Below the pieces are notes generated by a model. It was not told the DNA's origin. It saw nothing but the letters and a program-made list of their open reading frames with translations, and did no database searches. From Alphaproteobacteria bacterium (GTDB lineage: Bacteria; Pseudomonadota; Alphaproteobacteria; Micropepsales; Micropepsaceae), in NCBI GenBank assembly GCA_021324545.1, contig JAJPIX010000041.1, positions 1 through 36,500 of the forward strand: a DNA stretch of 36,500 nt, in the 5' to 3' direction. Made by a program: the position numbers and the translations under genes. Below are positions 2,594 to 10,524 of the stretch, in pieces. Within the stretch, counting starts at the first letter, position 1. Every line of letters begins with the position of its first letter.

Positions 2594-3999
2594 GCGTGCC
2601 GCCGCAAGTCATTGAACGGCTCAAGGCCGCGGCCGGCCCGAAAGGCTACACGGACGATCCGCATGAAATCGCGCCGCATGTCGAAGAATGGCGCGGCAAG
2701 TTCCACGGTCACACGCCGCTGATGTTGAAGCCTTCCAGCACCGCTGAGGTATCGGCCGTGCTTTCCATCTGTCACGAAACCGGCACACCGGTAGTGCCGC
2801 AGGGCGGCAACACCGGCCTTGTCGGGGGGCAGATCCCCTTCGCGGGGGAAGTCCTGCTCAGCCTGTCGCGCATGAACCGTGTGCGCCATGTGGATGCGGC
2901 AGGCGCCTATCTTGTCGCGGAGGCCGGGGCGATCCTCGCCGATGTGCAAGCCGCAGCGGAAGGCGCAGGGCTTCTCTTTCCGCTCCGCATTGCGTCCGAA
3001 GGCTCCTGCACGATCGGCGGCAACCTGTCCACGAATGCGGGCGGCGAAAATGTTCTTCGCTACGGCACGGCGCGCGATCTGGCGCTCGGGCTGCAAGTCG
3101 TGCTGGCCGACGGCACGGTCCTCGACATGCTCAGGACCCTGCACAAGGACAACACGGGCTATGACCTGAAGCAGCTCTTCATCGGCGCGGAAGGAACGCT
3201 CGGCGTCGTCACCGCCGCCGCGCTGTCGCTTTTTCCGAAGCCGGAAAACACCGTCACGGTTTTCGCGGGGGTGAGCGATCCTGCGGCCGCCATCGCCCTG
3301 CTTTCACGGCTGCAGGCGGCGAGCGGCGGCCTGATCTCGGCCTGCGAGGTGATCGCCCGTTTCGGGCTCGATCTTGTGCTGGCGCATATTCCGGGCACGG
3401 CCCATCCGCTGCGGTCGCACGCGCCGTGGTACTTGCTGGTCGAGGCCACGGGACCGGCGCGTTTCGACCTTCGCGGCGCGTTCGAAGACCGCCTGTCGCG
3501 CGCCGCCGACGACGGACTCGTCGCCGACGCCGTGTTTGCGGCAAGCGAAGCGCAACGCGCGGCGCTCTGGAAACTGCGCGAGAGCCTGTCGGAGGCACAA
3601 AAAAAGGAGGGCGCGTCCATCAAGCATGACATTTCGCTGCCCGTCGCGCGCATTCCCGAATTTCTGGAAAAGGCAACTGCGGCCGTAACGGCGAAAATTC
3701 CGGGCGCGCGCCCCTGCCCGTTCGGCCATCTGGGCGACGGCAACATTCACTTCAACATCAGCGCGCCCAGGGGTGCGGATGCGGCCGCATTCCTCGCCCA
3801 ATGGGAGGCGATGGCACACATTGTCCACGACATGGTGCATGCCATGGGCGGATCTTACAGCGCCGAGCATGGCATCGGGGTGCTCAAACGCGCGGACATG
3901 GCGCGCTACAAGAGCAGGCCGGAACTCGACCTCATGCGTGCGCTGAAACGCACGCTCGACCCGAAGAACATCCTCAATCCGGGAAAGCTTCTGCCCTAG
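2590..3999 (+). CDS. FAD-binding 2-hydroxyacid dehydrogenase (GlcD/D2HGDH-like)
   Basis: A 469-residue flavoprotein of the VAO/PCMH fold. The FAD-binding half carries PQGGNTGLVGG (residues 70-80) and EGSCTIGGNLSTNAGG; the C-terminal substrate domain carries GHLGDGNIHFN (379-389) and SAEHGIGVLKR (424-434), hallmarks of the glycolate oxidase GlcD, D-lactate and D-2-hydroxyglutarate dehydrogenase group. The substrate cannot be settled from sequence; closeness to D-2-hydroxyglutarate dehydrogenases is my impression. Its start overlaps tsaC by four bases. Its stop shares the palindrome CTAG with the stop of the convergent glycosyltransferase. Confidence 0.9.
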   Translation: MSVPPQVIERLKAAAGPKGYTDDPHEIAPHVEEWRGKFHGHTPLMLKPSSTAEVSAVLSICHETGTPVVPQGGNTGLVGGQIPFAGEVLLSLSRMNRVRHVDAAGAYLVAEAGAILADVQAAAEGAGLLFPLRIASEGSCTIGGNLSTNAGGENVLRYGTARDLALGLQVVLADGTVLDMLRTLHKDNTGYDLKQLFIGAEGTLGVVTAAALSLFPKPENTVTVFAGVSDPAAAIALLSRLQAASGGLISACEVIARFGLDLVLAHIPGTAHPLRSHAPWYLLVEATGPARFDLRGAFEDRLSRAADDGLVADAVFAASEAQRAALWKLRESLSEAQKKEGASIKHDISLPVARIPEFLEKATAAVTAKIPGARPCPFGHLGDGNIHFNISAPRGADAAAFLAQWEAMAHIVHDMVHAMGGSYSAEHGIGVLKRADMARYKSRPELDLMRALKRTLDPKNILNPGKLLP

Positions 4000-6668
4000 G
4001 CGGCTTTCGGAAGCACAGGCTCCACGGCCGGTTCCGCTGCCTTCGGCAGCGGCAGCACGTCGGCGCCGATCCGCCGCGCATTGGCGACGGCGCTGAGCAC
4101 GGCGGTGACCAGCGTCGCCATATAGGGAAGCGCCTGGATGCCGAGCATGGTCATCCACAAGGTTGCGGCCGGGTCATCGAGCCCGCGATCGAACATCATG
4201 GCCAGAACGGCCAGGGAGCAGAACCCCAGGAGCGTGAGTTCCTGCCAGATGACGCGCAGCACCAGCCGCAGGTCCGCGGGGTTTTCGCACTTGGGCGTGC
4301 GCAGGAACGGCTTTCCCGACGTGAACAGCCCGCCAATGACCGCCTTGCCGACCGTGTGGGTGAGCGAAAGACCGGCGATCGAAGCCATGACGGCGCCTTT
4401 CACGCCGGAACGCACCTTCTGCGGATAGAGCAGAAGCGTCTTGAGCATCTTGGCGACGAACAGCGACAATGCCGCTGCCGATAGCGCGGCCATCGGCACG
4501 TCGAAATAGCGCGGCGCAACCGTCATCAGCAGGGTCCAGAACAGCGCGAACATGGTGACGACAAGGCCGAGCCCGTCGGAAATCCACGGCAGCCAGCCGC
4601 ACAGGAACTGATAGCGCTGGGCCCATGTCAGCCTCGTCTGGCCCAGGAAGATCGCGCGCGCATGGCGCTTCATGATCTGCATGGCGCCATAGACCCAGCG
4701 GTGCCGCTGGCTCATGAAGGCCGCCAGCGTATCCGGTGTCAGCCCGCGGCCCATGCTCTGGGGGATGTAGGCGGCGCTGTAGCCGCGTTCGAACAGCTTC
4801 AGGCCAAGCTCGGTGTCTTCGGTAATGCACCATTCGCTCCAGCCGCCGACTTCCTCCAGCGCGCCCTTGCGCACGATGGTCATGGTGCCGTGCTGGATGA
4901 TGGCATCGTGCTCGTTGCGCTCCACCATGCCGATATGGAAGAAGCCGCGATATTCCTCGTAGCACATGGCTTTGAAGAAGCTCTCGCGGCCGTCGCGATA
5001 ATCCTGCGGCCCCTGCACCAGCGCGATCTGCGCAGACGCAAAATACGGCAATGCGCGCCGCAGCCAGAACGGCTCGACCTGATAATCGCTGTCGATCACG
5101 CCAATGTACGCGGCCTGCGGGTCGGTGAGTTTCAGCGCCTGATTGAGCGCGCCGGCCTTGAAGCCCCTGAGCTCGTCGAGATGATGAAAGCGGAAGCGCG
5201 GGCCGAGCTTTTCGCAATGGGCCTCCACCGGACGCCAGACCGCGGGATCCTTGGTGTTGTTGTCCAGTACGATGACCTCGAAGTTTTCGTAATCGAGCCG
5301 CGCAAGCGCGTTCAGCGTTTGCACAACCATCTCCGGCGGCTCGTTGTAGCACGGCAGATGGATGGAAACCTTCGGCGGCAATTCGGGAATGGCGGCCGTG
5401 AGCGCGCGGCGCTCCACCCGCCAGAGGCTTGCGGCGAGTTCAATTCCTTCGGTAAGGATCACCGCCGCGGCCAGCAGCACAAGCGGTACCATGGCCAATG
5501 TCGCGGCAATTTCGCCCGGTTCGATGTATTCGAGCGTGGTGGCATCCACGAGCATCAGCAGGCCGGTCGTCACTAGCGCCACCAGCGCGCCCATCACGAA
5601 ATAGCCCGGCTGGCGCACGCGCGGCATCCGGAACAGGATCAACAGGCCCATCACCAGCGTGAGGATCGCGGCGAACACGGCATAGGTGCGCCATTCGGGG
5701 AATGAGCGGAGCATGCCGGTGAAGGCGAATTTCGGCACGCCGTTGGCGTCGAACAGGCCCCAGTAGGCGCCGACTGCCCCTTCGTTGCCGCCCTTCCACG
5801 GGCCGTCAAACGCTTCCATCAGGTAATAGTCGTAGCCCTTGTTCATCGCGAGCTGTACGAACGCGCGCACATAATACGCTTCATTGGCCAGCGAAGCCGC
5901 CGCCGCGCGGCGCATGCGGCCTTCGGAAGGCCAGCCGGTTTCACCGATCACGATCGGCTTGCCCGGAAACTCCCGCTGAACATGATCGTAGGCGCGCTGA
6001 AGGAAGCCGAGCGAATCGTCGATGGAGATGCCTTCCCAATAGGGAAGCAGGTGCACGGTTATGAAATCGCAGTATTTTCCGATCTCGGGATAAAGCAGCC
6101 ATGTTGACCAGGTTTCCGCCGTCGAAACCTTGATGCGATTGGGCAGCGCCGCGCGCACCCGCCGGATGTATTCATTGAGCTGATCGGGCGTGACATCGCC
6201 GCGCAGAATTGTTTCGTTGCCCACGAACACGCGGTCCACGGTGCGGCGGTTGGCGCGCGCCACGCGGATGGCGGTGGCGATTTCCTTTTCATTCTGTTCA
6301 AGGTCCGGCCCGATCCAGATGCCGAGCGACACGGTGAGCCCGTAACGCGCCGCGATCTCCGGCACGCGATCGAGCCCCTTGGCCACCGTGTAGGTGCGGA
6401 TGTGATCGGTCAGCTGCGACATCTGCCGCATGTCCTGATCGATATGTTCGGGGCTGATCCGGTTGTACTGCTTGCGCGTGAACAGATGGCTTGGGCTGTA
6501 GGCCAGCCCGCGGACCTGCCCGTCCCAGTCCGGCGCGATCACGGCATAGTCGCGGCTGGCCCAATAAAGCGCGCTGGCGCCGACGACCAGCAGCAGCGCA
6601 ATCACGATTCGGGCGGTTCTGCCCCGTGGGCTGCGCCAGAACGCGCGCAAATTTTCCAGACCGCTCAC
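3996..6668 (-). CDS. GH17-GT2 fusion membrane protein, probable beta-glucan synthase
   Basis: An 890-residue inner-membrane protein with two catalytic modules. After one membrane segment (about 20-36), residues 45-325 resemble glycoside hydrolase family 17, with candidate acid/base E152 in VGNET and nucleophile E243 in IGETGWPSEG. Membrane segments near 329-406 lead to a family 2 processive glycosyltransferase (about 432-680): DSD at 526-528, TED at 616-618 and QRHRW at 654-658. More membrane helices follow. The layout matches NdvB/NdvC-type proteins that make beta-1,3 or beta-1,3/1,6 glucans, with the GH17 module thought to act as a transglycosylase. Start is GTG with AGGACAG upstream. It lies 13 bases after the FKBP gene, so the two may be co-transcribed. 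The exact linkage is not predictable. Confidence 0.88.
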   Translation of the reverse strand: MSGLENLRAFWRSPRGRTARIVIALLLVVGASALYWASRDYAVIAPDWDGQVRGLAYSPSHLFTRKQYNRISPEHIDQDMRQMSQLTDHIRTYTVAKGLDRVPEIAARYGLTVSLGIWIGPDLEQNEKEIATAIRVARANRRTVDRVFVGNETILRGDVTPDQLNEYIRRVRAALPNRIKVSTAETWSTWLLYPEIGKYCDFITVHLLPYWEGISIDDSLGFLQRAYDHVQREFPGKPIVIGETGWPSEGRMRRAAAASLANEAYYVRAFVQLAMNKGYDYYLMEAFDGPWKGGNEGAVGAYWGLFDANGVPKFAFTGMLRSFPEWRTYAVFAAILTLVMGLLILFRMPRVRQPGYFVMGALVALVTTGLLMLVDATTLEYIEPGEIAATLAMVPLVLLAAAVILTEGIELAASLWRVERRALTAAIPELPPKVSIHLPCYNEPPEMVVQTLNALARLDYENFEVIVLDNNTKDPAVWRPVEAHCEKLGPRFRFHHLDELRGFKAGALNQALKLTDPQAAYIGVIDSDYQVEPFWLRRALPYFASAQIALVQGPQDYRDGRESFFKAMCYEEYRGFFHIGMVERNEHDAIIQHGTMTIVRKGALEEVGGWSEWCITEDTELGLKLFERGYSAAYIPQSMGRGLTPDTLAAFMSQRHRWVYGAMQIMKRHARAIFLGQTRLTWAQRYQFLCGWLPWISDGLGLVVTMFALFWTLLMTVAPRYFDVPMAALSAAALSLFVAKMLKTLLLYPQKVRSGVKGAVMASIAGLSLTHTVGKAVIGGLFTSGKPFLRTPKCENPADLRLVLRVIWQELTLLGFCSLAVLAMMFDRGLDDPAATLWMTMLGIQALPYMATLVTAVLSAVANARRIGADVLPLPKAAEPAVEPVLPKAA

Positions 6669-6681
6669 GAACTGTCCTGCC

Positions 6682-7191
6682 CTATTGCTGGGAATTGCCG
6701 CCCTGGTCTGACGGGTTCTGGCTTGGCGGCGGAGTCGATACTTTCACAAGCTGCAGATCGAAGATCAGCGTCTGGTTCGGCGGGATCACATTTCCGGCGC
6801 CGCGCGACCCATAGGCCAGGTTCGGCGGTAGCACGATTTCCCAATGGTCGCCTTCGCGCATCAGCTGGAGGGCCTCGGTCCAGCCCGCGATCAGGCGATT
6901 GGCCTGGAAGGTCGCCGGCAGACCGGGCTCGGTGGAATCGAAGACGGTGCCGTTGATGAGGGTGCCCTTGTAATAGACCGTCACGTTGTCGGTGGCCTTG
7001 GGCGACTTACCGAATCCGTTCTGGATGATGCGGTACATCAGGCCGCTCGGCCGCTTCACGACGCCGGGTTTGCCGGCATAGGCGGCCAAAAAGGAGTCGT
7101 TGGCCTGCGCGCTCAGGCTGGCATCCGCGGCCGCGGCCGGTACGGCCCCCAACAGCAAGCTAGCGGCCAAAACCGCGGCAAACCGGAACAT
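6682..7191 (-). CDS. FKBP-type peptidyl-prolyl cis-trans isomerase, exported
   Basis: A 169-residue FKBP-type isomerase that speeds proline isomerisation during folding of exported proteins. I choose the ATG at 7191 because a clear signal peptide follows (MFRFAAVLAASLLLGAVPAAAA) and AAGGGGAG stands at good spacing; an upstream in-frame extension is unlikely. The FKBP domain is recognisable from VTVYYKGTLINGTVFDST, the WTEALQLMREGDHWEIVLP stretch and LAYGSRGAGNVIPPNQTLIF. The short C-terminal tail is rich in Pro, Gln and Asn. It precedes the glucan synthase gene on the same strand and may help fold envelope proteins generally. Confidence 0.93.
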   Translation of the reverse strand: MFRFAAVLAASLLLGAVPAAAADASLSAQANDSFLAAYAGKPGVVKRPSGLMYRIIQNGFGKSPKATDNVTVYYKGTLINGTVFDSTEPGLPATFQANRLIAGWTEALQLMREGDHWEIVLPPNLAYGSRGAGNVIPPNQTLIFDLQLVKVSTPPPSQNPSDQGGNSQQ

Positions 7192-7488
7192 CAGGATACT
7201 CCCCTTGGCTGTGGCCCTGCCCTGTCGGGATGGCCGGTCAGTTTCTGCACCCACCGGATTGACACAATAAATCCGGCGGAGGCTTTTTGCTCCATCTCAT
7301 TTCGACGCGCCATAGGCAGCGGTTGTGGCCAATTCAGGGCCGTTCGGGCCGCCCGCCCCGCCGGGAGCAGAGCCTTCGCGCGCCGCAGGTTTTCCGGTTT
7401 AGATGCTTGAATCGCAAGCGCTAATGCCAAACGTGCTTTATTGGGATGGCGCCGGCGTTCAAGCGCGCCCGTGACGAGGGAAAGGCAC

Positions 7489-7926
7489 ATGACAACCGGG
7501 ATTTGGCCTCGGCTTGGGGTGGGCGGCGTGATCTGGCGCGGGGACGCGGCCCTGTTGCTTGTCCGCCGGCGGAACATGCCCCGCGCCGGCGAGTGGAGCC
7601 TGCCCGGCGGGCGTGTTGAGCCCGGGGAAAGCCTGCGCCAGGCGCTGGCCCGCGAGGTGCGCGAGGAGACAGGGCTTGAGATCGAGATCGGTCCGCTGAT
7701 CGATGTCGTCGAATCGATCACGCGGGATGCGGCGGGCGCGATTGCCTTTCACTATGTCCTTGCCGATTTCACGGCGCATTGGCGTTCGGGCGAGGCTGTG
7801 GCCGCAACGGATGCGAGCGCCTGCAGATGGCTTGCCCCGCGCGAGGCCATCGCGCTTGTTTCCTGGCCGGAGACGGCGCGCATTATCCGGCAGAGCGCCA
7901 GCCGGACCTGGAATCTGAACCTCTAG
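7489..7926 (+). CDS. Nudix hydrolase
   Basis: A 145-residue Nudix enzyme that hydrolyses nucleoside diphosphate linked compounds. The Nudix box is complete: GGRVEPGESLRQALAREVRE followed directly by ETGLEI, with the REVREE glutamates for metal binding. The N-terminal GVGGVIWRGDAALLLVRR and the SLPGG turn suit the ADP-ribose pyrophosphatase/MutT-like group; the substrate is undetermined. I prefer the ATG at 7489, with GAGGGAAAGG just upstream, over a longer form from 7441 whose 16 extra residues are basic and unlike the family. Its stop shares CTAG with the convergent gene. Confidence 0.9.
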   Translation: MTTGIWPRLGVGGVIWRGDAALLLVRRRNMPRAGEWSLPGGRVEPGESLRQALAREVREETGLEIEIGPLIDVVESITRDAAGAIAFHYVLADFTAHWRSGEAVAATDASACRWLAPREAIALVSWPETARIIRQSASRTWNLNL

Positions 7927-8321
7927 CGGCGACCGAACAGGCGCGCGAAGAGGGAACGCCTTGGCTCCACATGTTTGCCGACCACGCGGCCGATCGGGCC
8001 CGGCTGGGCCATGGGCGGCTCGACAATCTTTTGCGCTTTCGGAGCCGGGCTGTTGCGCAACAGGTTCAGCCTGAGACCGGGCTGGAATTTGCGCAGCGGC
8101 AGGAATTCGGGTCGCGGCCCGATGCCCTGATTCATGAACTTGCGCGACCATTCTTCGTCGGGGCTCGGCAGGTATCCGCGCGGCTCATTCCCGCCCGTCG
8201 CACCCCGCGTCTCGGCCACGGGCCGGCCGCTGAGCGAGCGCTCAAGCTGCTCAAGCCGGGCAACCGCGTCGTCAAGAGCGCTGCGGCGCGGCCTGTGCCG
8301 CCATCCGTCTTTGAGGGACAT
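7923..8321 (-). CDS. Uncharacterised small basic protein, coupled to the Ntn-hydrolase-like gene
   Basis: I do not recognise this 132-residue protein. It starts with a basic segment and a short heptad-like helix (DDAVARLEQLERSL), then a Gly/Pro-rich middle containing YLPSPDEEWSRKFMNQGIG, and ends with a basic amphipathic tail, RRSLFARLFGRR, that could sit on a membrane or nucleic acid. No signal peptide or transmembrane segment is seen. The ATG at 8321 has GGAGG at ideal spacing, inside the end of the upstream gene, and lies two bases after that gene's stop. This implies translational coupling and a shared function with the 417-residue protein. Confidence 0.7.
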   Translation of the reverse strand: MSLKDGWRHRPRRSALDDAVARLEQLERSLSGRPVAETRGATGGNEPRGYLPSPDEEWSRKFMNQGIGPRPEFLPLRKFQPGLRLNLLRNSPAPKAQKIVEPPMAQPGPIGRVVGKHVEPRRSLFARLFGRR

Positions 8322-8323
8322 GT

Positions 8324-9577
8324 CTAACCTCCACTCTGGCGCGTGTGCCACTGGAACCCGTCGTCTCGGCTGATCACGGCCACATCGATGGCGCCGCCGA
8401 CCGTTTCCTTCTGCGCCATGATACGCTTTTTGAAGACGTTAAGGCCAACAAGATCGCGCGCGGTTTCCGCAAGCTCCCTGCGACCGGCGATTTCGAGCAC
8501 CCGCAGGATGGGGTTGATGAAGGCCTGCTGCTGATATTCGCCGATCATGCCCCGCAGGGCCTCGAAATAACGCGGCACCACGTCATCGTGGAAGCGCGCG
8601 CGCGTACTTTCGCGCAGGGCCGGATCGCCCCCGGGCAGGGCGTCCACCACCTGGTCCACCAGCGCATGCAGCATCATGCCGAACCCGCCATAAAGCCGCC
8701 GCTCCAGGTTGAAGTCGATGCCCCGGATGAAGGCGTTGGTCACCTCGCTGTCGGCAAACACCCGGATTTTGGAACGAACGTCGCCGTCGATCGCGTCATC
8801 GGTTGCCTGATTGCGCTTGACGATGCCGCCCACCATGGCCGAGCTCAGCCATGTCACGACGCGCGGATACCGGTCTTCGCTGCCGTACCCCGCAAATACC
8901 AGGCCGGTGACATCCTCCACAAACAGGTCCTTCACCACGCAGAAGACTGCGATTTCGCGGAGCCGCTGGATCGCGGGCTTCGACAGCGCGAACTGGCTGA
9001 AACCGTAGGCGATCACCTGTTCAGCGATGGCGCTGTAATCGCGCGCGACCACCCGGCTGAAATCGGCCGGAAAGCAGGCAAGATCGCCGCGCGGGGTTCC
9101 ATCATCGCGGAACTGGTACTCGCGCCACAGCCTTTCGATCGCCGATTCCAGGACTGTCCGGTCATCGGCGCTGGCGAACGTCTCTTCCTCACTGTCGCGC
9201 ATGTATTGCGCCAGGCGAAAGATGTAGCGGAACACGGACGCGACCAGCCGCTTGTAATCGTCGCGCTGGCGTGCGGGCGGGAAGAATTCGTCAAGGCGGT
9301 CGAGCATGCCGAGAAACGCGCCGGCATAATCGCGCAACGCGGCGAACCGCGCCGGACGATGCTTCTTCTGGTAGTGCTCAACGAGCTGTTCCCAGGGGTG
9401 GCCCATCATGTCGGCCACCCCGAAAAACATGAGGCCGACCGGGGCGCCATCGGCGAGATTGAACAGCTTGCGCTGGCCGTTGCGCACGGCCACGGTCCCG
9501 CCGTCAATCAGCGTGACCGCAGAGTCGGCTGCGAGCGCCACGGCCCGCTGATTCATCACAGCGATTTCGGATGTCAT
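8324..9577 (-). CDS. Uncharacterised protein with proteasome-like Ntn-hydrolase N-terminus
   Basis: A 417-residue protein of a family I cannot name. Its N-terminus, MTSEIAVMNQRAVALAADSA, closely resembles the first strands of proteasome beta and HslV subunits. If Met is removed, Thr becomes residue 1, Asp of AAD becomes residue 17 exactly as in proteasomes, and a Lys (RKLFNL, residue 36 in that numbering) lies near the usual Lys33. A PVGLMFFGVADMMG segment follows where proteasomes have a glycine-rich strand. After about residue 90 the sequence is a long helical region (FRYIFRLAQYMRDSEEE and onward) with no proteasome counterpart, so the protein is much larger than HslV or beta subunits. Divergent from the SDR gene; coupled to a small protein downstream. 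Peptidase activity is inference. Confidence 0.72.
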   Translation of the reverse strand: MTSEIAVMNQRAVALAADSAVTLIDGGTVAVRNGQRKLFNLADGAPVGLMFFGVADMMGHPWEQLVEHYQKKHRPARFAALRDYAGAFLGMLDRLDEFFPPARQRDDYKRLVASVFRYIFRLAQYMRDSEEETFASADDRTVLESAIERLWREYQFRDDGTPRGDLACFPADFSRVVARDYSAIAEQVIAYGFSQFALSKPAIQRLREIAVFCVVKDLFVEDVTGLVFAGYGSEDRYPRVVTWLSSAMVGGIVKRNQATDDAIDGDVRSKIRVFADSEVTNAFIRGIDFNLERRLYGGFGMMLHALVDQVVDALPGGDPALRESTRARFHDDVVPRYFEALRGMIGEYQQQAFINPILRVLEIAGRRELAETARDLVGLNVFKKRIMAQKETVGGAIDVAVISRDDGFQWHTRQSGG

Positions 9578-9744
9578 TCCCCGGCACCGTTACCCGGCCG
9601 TCCCCAGCGGCCCGGAAAAGGATGTCACAGGGTCTTGCCGATTGGGAGAGCGAGCACTCGAATTGGTTACGACAGCGGCCGCATTTTGCGATTGTTGCGC
9701 GAAGCTTTAGGCTCGCCGCATGAAGCTTTCCAGGATGCGGGACC

Positions 9745-10524
9745 ATGTATCGGCCGTTCGACCTGACGGGAAAAGTCGCTCTTGTGACAGGAGGCAACCG
9801 CGGCATCGGCCTTGGCATGGCCATGGCGCTGGCCGAGGCCGGAGCCGATGTCATCATTTGGGGAACGAACCAGCCGAAAAATGAACTGGCCGCCGCGGGC
9901 CTGAAAAAGATCGGCCGCCGCGTGCTGGCGCAGCAGGTGGATGTATCGCGTGAAGCCGACGTGGTCCGCGCGATGGCCGGAGCGGTTGCGCAAATGGGCC
10001 GCATCGATATTGCGATCGCCAACGCCGGCATCGGCGGCGGCGGCGCGCCATTCACTGACATCGCGACGGACTCATTTCGCAGGATCCAGTCGGTCAACGT
10101 TGAAGGAGCGTTTTTCACGCTGCGCGAGGCCGCAAAGCACATGGTGGAGCGCGCCAGGAAGGGCGATCCGGGCGGATCGCTCGTCGGCGTCGCCAGCCTT
10201 GCCGGCATCGAAGGCGCCGGGCGCAACCAGCACTATGGCGCCAGCAAGGGCGCCGTGATCTCCATGATGCGGGGCATCGCCGTGGAGCTGGCGCGCTACG
10301 GTATTCGCGCCAACACCATCGCGCCGGGCTGGATTGCGACCGACATGACGGCAGGCCTTCAGGGCAACAGGGCGTTCGAGGAAAAAGTCCTGCCGCGCGT
10401 GCCGATGCGCCGCTGGGGCAAGCCCGAAGATTTCGGAGGCATCGCGGTCTATCTGGCAAGCGACGCGTCCGCCTATCACTCCGGCGACACATTTGTGATC
10501 GACGGCGGATATGCCGTGTTCTGA
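9745..10524 (+). CDS. SDR-family NAD(P)-dependent oxidoreductase
   Basis: A 259-residue classical short-chain dehydrogenase/reductase. Visible motifs are the cofactor glycine motif TGGNRGIG (15-22), NAG in IANAGIGG, catalytic Ser in VASLAG (S151) and YGASK (Y164, K168), and the C-terminal DGGYAVF typical of the FabG-like subgroup. The substrate is not predictable; similar proteins reduce 3-oxoacyl groups, sugars or secondary alcohols. It is 11 bases ahead of the nitronate monooxygenase-like gene and likely shares its transcript. The start ATG is preceded by GGGAC and AGGA. Confidence 0.92.
   Translation: MYRPFDLTGKVALVTGGNRGIGLGMAMALAEAGADVIIWGTNQPKNELAAAGLKKIGRRVLAQQVDVSREADVVRAMAGAVAQMGRIDIAIANAGIGGGGAPFTDIATDSFRRIQSVNVEGAFFTLREAAKHMVERARKGDPGGSLVGVASLAGIEGAGRNQHYGASKGAVISMMRGIAVELARYGIRANTIAPGWIATDMTAGLQGNRAFEEKVLPRVPMRRWGKPEDFGGIAVYLASDASAYHSGDTFVIDGGYAVF

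Follow-up and report, generated by a model that had tools for sequence, protein, structure and literature searches.

A 417-residue protein encoded in the window (the whole 36,500-nucleotide stretch of contig JAJPIX010000041.1 analysed here, from a Micropepsaceae bacterium) is, on computational evidence, probably a proteasome-like N-terminal-nucleophile (Ntn) enzyme that bears multiple insertions (PMI, most likely PMI-4), and the insertions would serve to select narrow protein substrates. The insertion-bearing kind as such is known; new are a fixed chromosomal spot, relatives in phages, satellites and plasmids, and two rhizobial neighbourhoods with ubiquitin-like genes. The catalytic triad of proteasomes is formed by Thr1, Asp17 and Lys33, and Gly47 is the oxyanion-hole residue.

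The gene and its start codon

The open frame runs from ATG to TAG on the minus strand of the window (8324-9577) and encodes 417 amino acids, the protein beginning MTSEIAVMNQRAVALAADSA. Based on its PHROGs match, the triad and the structure model, we assign this coding sequence (8324..9577, minus strand) to a proteasome-like Ntn hydrolase of the phrog_5990 family, probably of the PMI-4 type. The initial annotation, which named no strand, had described 417 residues with a proteasome-type Thr/Asp/Lys N-terminus, and Thr2, Asp18 and Lys37 are indeed present in this minus-strand frame. Upstream of the ATG there are four more open codons, none of which is ATG, GTG or TTG, and then a TAA, and the MTSE start is identical in 13 relatives from other genomes (54-71% identity), which places Thr at residue 2 unless translation begins at an internal codon. 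After removal of the Met, the residues are numbered Thr 1, Asp 17 and Lys 36, the last being three positions later than the proteasome Lys33. Since the protein starts with Met-Thr and lacks any start upstream, no propeptide is seen.

The genus copies diverge mainly at third codon positions when compared in pairs (for L004 and L006, 3.6% at position 2 versus 37% at position 3), and these codon-position differences show that the gene is under purifying selection. The minus-strand gene has a GC content of 68/42/80% at the three codon positions. An overlapping open reading frame of 473 aa in the opposite orientation (8345-9766) is unlikely to be the gene, as the codon-position statistics favour the minus-strand frame. 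A promoter search for the gene returned none, with 0.5 expected.

Conservation of the predicted catalytic triad

Based on the amino-acid composition of nine proteins from the window, a Thr at position 2, an Asp at position 18 and a Lys within a five-residue window are expected by chance about once in 2700 genes. Assuming 2700 genes per genome, about one gene per genome would carry the motif by chance, so the motif by itself is no evidence. The triad counts as evidence because it is invariant in 26 diverse sequences and is accompanied by the predicted fold. These 26 sequences form alignment A1; they were chosen for diversity, share 19-71% identity with the window protein, and leave out near-duplicates, the short L029, the split L025 and L032, and the partial L027. 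Eight positions are invariant in all of them (T2, N9, A17, D18, K37, G225, G230 and A275), the putative triad proposed in the initial annotation thus being kept down to 19% identity. One of the rows, L023, has ATT at the place of the expected start codon, which makes its start unsure, and five others (L019, L028, L031, L043 and L044) start with GTG or TTG, read there as V or L.

A second set comprised 94 sequences, namely the window protein, 13 genome loci and 80 viral loci. Of these, 93 have T and one has S at position 2, and K37 is K in 94/94. D18 is likewise D in 94/94; however, 80 of the 94 were found with a pattern that contained D18, and since this viral scan pattern held AADSA, the counts from D18 to A20 are biased. 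The codons of the candidate triad are located on the minus strand at 9572..9574 (Thr2, the N-terminal nucleophile after Met removal, a role to which the structural alignments also point), 9524..9526 (Asp18, corresponding to Asp17 of the proteasome) and 9467..9469 (Lys37, corresponding to Lys33).

Predicted fold and insertions

The AlphaFold2 model, built with 54 sequences, reached a pLDDT of 90.1 and a pTM of 0.87. Its elements follow the order of strands within residues 4-54, helices at 62-215, strands at 224-274, helices at 278-387, and strands at 397-403 and 407-412. Using VIA-align 2, the best among the matches listed was Anbu (Z 16.0, rmsd 3.2, 191 aligned residues), and yeast beta (Z 15.5), Thermoplasma acidophilum beta (Z 15.0, 20% identity) and many further proteasome beta subunits (Z about 15, 169-187 aligned) were also matched. 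The Anbu alignment and most of the beta alignments start with model residue 2 on chain residue 1, which would put Thr2 at the place of Thr1. A Foldseek search against the PDB gave 17 matches at E <= 0.001, all of them proteasome chains. Their superpositions are of low quality, with a TM-score of about 0.25 of the query and an rmsd > 13 Å, because the alignments run across the insertions. Against viral models, the single Foldseek match at E <= 0.001 was a phage protein named proteasome beta type-2. According to the model, the window protein has the proteasome-beta core fold. The placement of Asp18 and Lys37 in the putative active site rests on their spacing, their invariance and local HslV profile alignments that are in register though not significant. 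The proteasome-type Ntn fold and triad suggested in the initial annotation are therefore borne out by the predicted structure, the Anbu and beta matches and the family alignment, and neither the fold nor the conservation spoke against them.

The model also changes one part of that annotation, which had described a long helical C-terminal half. The helices are predicted to lie inside the fold, the last elements of which are the strands at 397-403 and 407-412. The H1/H2 region of the modelled fold probably holds a large insertion, located within residues 72-221, and H3/H4 is probably lengthened, within 291-365. The helices at 62-215 precede the strand at 224, and those at 278-387 lie between the strands at 269-274 and 397-403, this helix assignment being tentative. 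On the minus strand, the predicted N-terminal core (residues 2-71, first strands and the start of the first helix) is encoded at 9365..9574, the mostly helical first insertion (residues 72-221) at 8915..9364, the middle core (residues 222-290, four strands and a helix start, with the invariant G225, G230 and A275) at 8708..8914, the long helices of the second insertion (residues 291-365) at 8483..8707, and the C-terminal core (residues 366-412, comprising a helix plus the final two strands, which carry the motif ETVGGxIDVAVIS) at 8342..8482. Median pairwise identities in A1 are 41, 29 and 43% for the three core parts, compared to 14 and 13.5% for the first and second insertions, and there is no invariant column in either insertion (0/150 in the first). 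This contrast suggests that the protein is a threonine hydrolase or transpeptidase whose recognition part changes while its core is retained.

The residues around the putative active site are less proteasome-like. Judged by spacing alone, G53 takes the position of Gly47; among the 26 sequences, 11 have G and 11 have N there, and among the 94 the numbers are 74 and 18. The position equivalent to Ser169 (V393, in a register taken from a weak PDB profile alignment) is Val in 25/26. Since G53 is mostly G or N and the Ser169 position is Val, the second shell appears to differ from that of proteasomes, which would be compatible with a catalytically dead scaffold that retained the proteasome fold. 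Such a scaffold is very unlikely, however, given that the nucleophile, the Asp and the Lys are invariant in 26 sequences and that the lone change at position 2 in the set of 94 replaces Thr by Ser.

Sequence searches

No model in Pfam or NCBIfam catches the window protein. In PHROGs v4, phrog_5990 matches it with an E value of 4e-73 over residues 1-413, and the same entry, annotated as function unknown, is matched by all 26 A1 members. When the family profile was compared with the PDB, the match to proteasome beta spanned 18 positions with an E of 0.18 and ranked below unrelated helical chains (E 0.066); in this weak alignment the C-terminal stretch lies on archaeal beta residues 170-187. The proteasome model PF00227 matches 2/26 A1 sequences with a best E of 0.0063, and an unrelated helical family scores 0.0032. 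Comparison of the family profile with HslV gave a probability of 0.1-2%, which is not significant; the Asp and Lys were in register in the local alignments and out of register in some global ones. Sequence methods alone, therefore, do not join the window protein to proteasomes.

Comparison with known proteasome homologs

Besides the proteasome, HslV and a few others, there are numerous proteasome homologs without a known job, and Fuchs, Alva and Lupas described 22 new ones in 2021 (PMC8665760). In that paper, PMI-4 stands for variant 4 of the proteasome homologs with multiple insertions; it comprises 501 sequences (e.g., HDY66466.1), which Table 1 assigns to Proteobacteria, Firmicutes, Bacteroidetes and phages. 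Its long insertions occupy the H1/H2 pore-loop site and the stretch from H3 to H4, and the C-terminus has none. The authors state that neither genomic context nor co-occurrence hinted at a function. The family of the window protein resembles PMI-4, as described there, in its triad, its probable H1/H2 and H3/H4 insertions, the lack of a propeptide and the lack of a known partner, and the phage and plasmid records match its range, with Proteobacteria, Firmicutes and Bacteroidetes hosts and phages. It differs from PMI-4 in that the Gly47 position is not always Gly. The window protein thus fits the PMI group, most likely PMI-4, in a comparison based on the published description. The initial annotation had considered a new Ntn branch, but insertion-bearing homologs, some of them in phages, had already been described in 2021. 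The entry phrog_5990 covers the same family; it carries no function in PHROGs, and the link to proteasomes comes from the present analysis.

Other known types fit less well. The homologs RPC, DAH and FC4 have extra C-terminal domains (PMC8665760) and are a misfit for the window protein, whose chain stops at the last core strand. Anbu gives the best structural match (Z 16.0, 191 residues) and has the triad; however, the Anbu chain 5nyw_H has 234 residues and is without the two large insertions, and Anbu ends in a C-terminal helix H5 (PMC8665760), whereas the last core strand of the window protein ends at 412 of 417. An Anbu identity was rejected, as the protein is neither a compact subunit nor provided with H5. 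The 20S beta subunit and HslV share the fold and Thr1/Asp17/Lys33 with the window protein, but they measure about 170-240 residues instead of 417, and for the window protein no propeptide is visible and the records inspected show no unfoldase neighbour. PMI-type insertions might hinder the formation of rings (PMC8665760). An identity as HslV was rejected based on the length (417 aa versus 170-175 in 16 aligned HslV), the absence of a PF00227 match and the profile comparison, which was not significant.

Connectase is likewise a proteasome-like Ntn protein with helical additions, and by analogy the window protein might be a protein ligase (transpeptidase) rather than a protease. An exposed Thr1 without a propeptide is found in connectase too, and the helical additions could cover the active site, as reported for connectase (PMC8665760). 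However, as described there, connectase has its two-helix insertion between S3 and S4 and misses H1/H2, whereas the long insertions of the window protein are elsewhere, and no recognition motif is known, so we consider this reading improbable. An identity as connectase itself was rejected, as the model has no helix among the first strands (4-54).

Chromosomal spot and distribution

The gene is present in 29/69 genomes of the genus, a rough figure because many genus genomes are incomplete, and the tally for the family is 40/96. In 26 of the 29 genus carriers it lies within about 2 kb of a gene for an 890-aa glycosyltransferase. The three exceptions are G406, where the distance is 5.8 kb, G411, where a contig end interrupts the locus, and G462, whose partial match is at another place. 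In the window this family 2 glycosyltransferase is encoded at 3996..6668 and an FKBP-type peptidyl-prolyl isomerase, the neighbour that marks the conserved spot, at 6682..7254, both on the minus strand. An FKBP gene follows in 13/13 genome loci, and on the other side there is either a LysE (7) or an SDR gene (6). When 20 of the 40 genus genomes without the gene were examined with tblastn, a trace of it was found at the spot in 0/20, and the nearest recognised neighbour of FKBP was LysE in 14, SDR in 4 (in 3 of these with several hundred bases between) and neither in 2. In the genus, the gene is thus dispensable and located at a fixed chromosomal place with clean absences. A functional tie to the FKBP or the glycosyltransferase is unsupported, as both remain where the gene is missing (the glycosyltransferase is found in 68/69 genus genomes, with or without the gene). 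Vertical descent within the genus was considered from the agreement between gene and glycosyltransferase distances and not adopted, the rank correlation being only moderate (0.40 over 13 loci, with distances that are not independent). Between the gene and FKBP lies an open reading frame of 230 aa (window 7459-8151, minus strand) that has no Pfam match and leaves weak traces in relatives.

Outside the genus the distribution is sparse, with 16/385 genomes of the class and 10/398 of the phylum, each count including the own genome. One genome, G356, holds two very divergent copies (L202 and L203) that sit on long tree branches.

Relatives in phages, satellites, plasmids and prophages

Relatives were found in 13 phage or satellite records and in 10 plasmid records, 8 of the latter covering >= 80% of the query, and 118 stretches in IMG/VR carry one, of which 80 were kept. 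The phage hosts include Streptococcus, Porphyromonas, Stenotrophomonas and Providencia, and the plasmids are from Enterococcus and rhizobia. Contexts were inspected in 6/13 phage records, 9/10 plasmid records (one unannotated) and 2/22 E. coli matches. In the 6 phage records the gene is unannotated and is located at the element end (2), beside lysis genes (2), inside a satellite (1) or in a portal-neck region (1). One satellite and a Streptococcus prophage end with it, in the latter case after the lysin; in a Stenotrophomonas phage it stands alone and inverted beside the lysis genes, a Providencia phage has it flanked by a methylase gene and the lysis genes, and in a Porphyromonas phage its neighbours are portal and neck genes. 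Another satellite has a HAD hydrolase and RelBE after the relative. A near-identical gene occurs in 9/5426 E. coli genomes, and in the one of these 9 copies that was inspected (L181:12001-13284, in a prophage) it is alone, inverted and next to a DNA methyltransferase gene. Among the lineages inspected, no common neighbour partner was found, the records inspected showed no unfoldase gene near family members, and a neighbour scan of further records yielded mostly nothing informative.

This distribution raises the possibility of a mobile conflict gene, a single-gene anti-phage or host-protection cargo acting on a phage or host protein, of which the genus copies would be a settled version. The occurrence in phage and satellite records and IMG/VR stretches, the element-end or lysis-side positions and the E. 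coli prophage copy beside the methyltransferase are consistent with such a cargo. Some neighbours match PADLOC models, strongly in the case of the E. coli methyltransferase and weakly in that of a Rhizobium neighbour (PD-T4-9_A, E 2.5e-7). A Gp49/HTH (HigBA-like) pair directly precedes the relative in Streptococcus satellites (L055:8195-10073, L060:5328-7206 and L131), and two of these satellites can be added on the same side. However, the pair occurs in 3/211 loci, all from one satellite lineage, and a general tie to toxin-antitoxin pairs was rejected on this basis. PADLOC-DB 2.0.0 has 0 families that match the window protein up to E 10 and 0 that match the Mesorhizobium relative up to E 0.001, and the Porphyromonas phage copy is at no obvious cargo site. 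Moreover, the window copy sits among metabolic genes, and in a midpoint-rooted tree of 70 proteins L018 and the genus copies form one group (support 100/99), whereas all viral, phage and plasmid rows fall into a clade of 50 rows (100/98) that also contains some genome rows but none of the genus copies. A literature search on proteasome-like proteins and phage defence gave no such report among the matches listed, and the word proteasome is absent from the retrieved main text of the defence papers PMC13092281, PMC9122126 and PMC9519451. Taken as a whole we regard a mobile conflict gene as a tentative possibility.

Ubiquitin-like conjugation genes beside rhizobial relatives

In 5/10 plasmid records, genes for a multiubiquitin protein and a ThiF-type E1 lie within about 3 kb of the relative. 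They come in two layouts, one in 4 Rhizobium plasmids and another in Mesorhizobium, with proteins that are only 30-38% identical between the layouts. One of the Rhizobium records, R602sp, was placed from match coordinates alone, and in the R. leguminosarum record the relative and the multiubiquitin gene match in pieces. According to Pfam, the Mesorhizobium protein combines Multi_ubiq with E2, and the R. gallicum protein is a JAB-ThiF fusion. The loci (L185:2733-7437, L186:5274-11751, L187 and L188) contain the relative with multiubiquitin, E2, E1 and JAB genes, to which Rhizobium adds a ClpP-like protease.

Such linkage in two divergent layouts would fit a family whose members carry out proteolysis or processing for mobile ubiquitin-like conjugation systems. 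However, the linkage is restricted to 2 lineages. A relative of the E1 is found in 178 plasmid records, and at least 168 of these are without the proteasome-like gene, as only 10 plasmid records carry that gene at all. In the flanks retrieved for other loci, tblastn gave no match to the rhizobial ubiquitin-like genes. Of the 385 class genomes, 16 have the gene and 11 Multi_ubiq, and the two occur together in 1, on different contigs, compared to 0.5 expected. A general tie to ubiquitin-like genes was rejected on this unlinked co-occurrence, and we consider a role in such systems very unlikely. The own genome gave no Multi_ubiq match, in a search in which no positive control matched either.

Proposed mechanism

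For the reading that we prefer, an insertion-bearing proteasome-like enzyme, the following mechanism can be envisaged. Methionine aminopeptidase would expose Thr1, and neither a propeptide nor self-cleavage would be needed. The Thr1 hydroxyl, helped by Asp17 and Lys36, would then attack a peptide or other amide bond, and the acyl-enzyme could be resolved by water, as in a peptidase, or by an amine, as in a transpeptidase such as connectase. The protein presumably works without a partner, and the helical insertions would probably replace ring geometry and an ATPase partner in selecting or admitting the substrate. As a single dispensable gene, which in many relatives is located on mobile elements, it may encode an enzyme that acts on a narrow set of proteins. 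A specialised optional task, e.g., in phage-host conflict, fits better than general turnover because the single-gene distribution is patchy and relatives are mobile.

The most far-reaching version, a widespread mobile single-gene threonine protease or ligase that is a weapon or shield between phage and host, reads its target by means of the insertions and is coupled to ubiquitin-like tagging in rhizobia, is doubtful. If true, the rhizobial coupling would represent a miniature ubiquitin-proteasome-like pair in mobile DNA, and, should the link to phages be confirmed, proteasome chemistry would have to be counted among the means of phage-host conflict. The protein offers a tractable handle, with a clear nucleophile (T2A as control), existing proteasome inhibitors, and relatives in an E. 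coli prophage and in small satellites, and the contrast between core and insertions points to where specificity may lie. The entry phrog_5990 can now be annotated as proteasome-like.

Other possible proteasome homologs in the genomes analysed

A shorter divergent relative of 280 aa (L029:874-1716), which begins MTIAIAVQVHDGVVLASDSA, was tried as a bridge to proteasomes and gave no Pfam match; it may be another proteasome-like branch. The own genome encodes a separate HslV-like PF00227 protein, so the window protein is no stand-in for HslV. Weaker PF00227 matches were observed in G421, G001, G406, G438 and G453, in frames of 135-278 aa that could be Anbu or other proteasome homologs, and in G001 and G406 they occur beside a stronger one.
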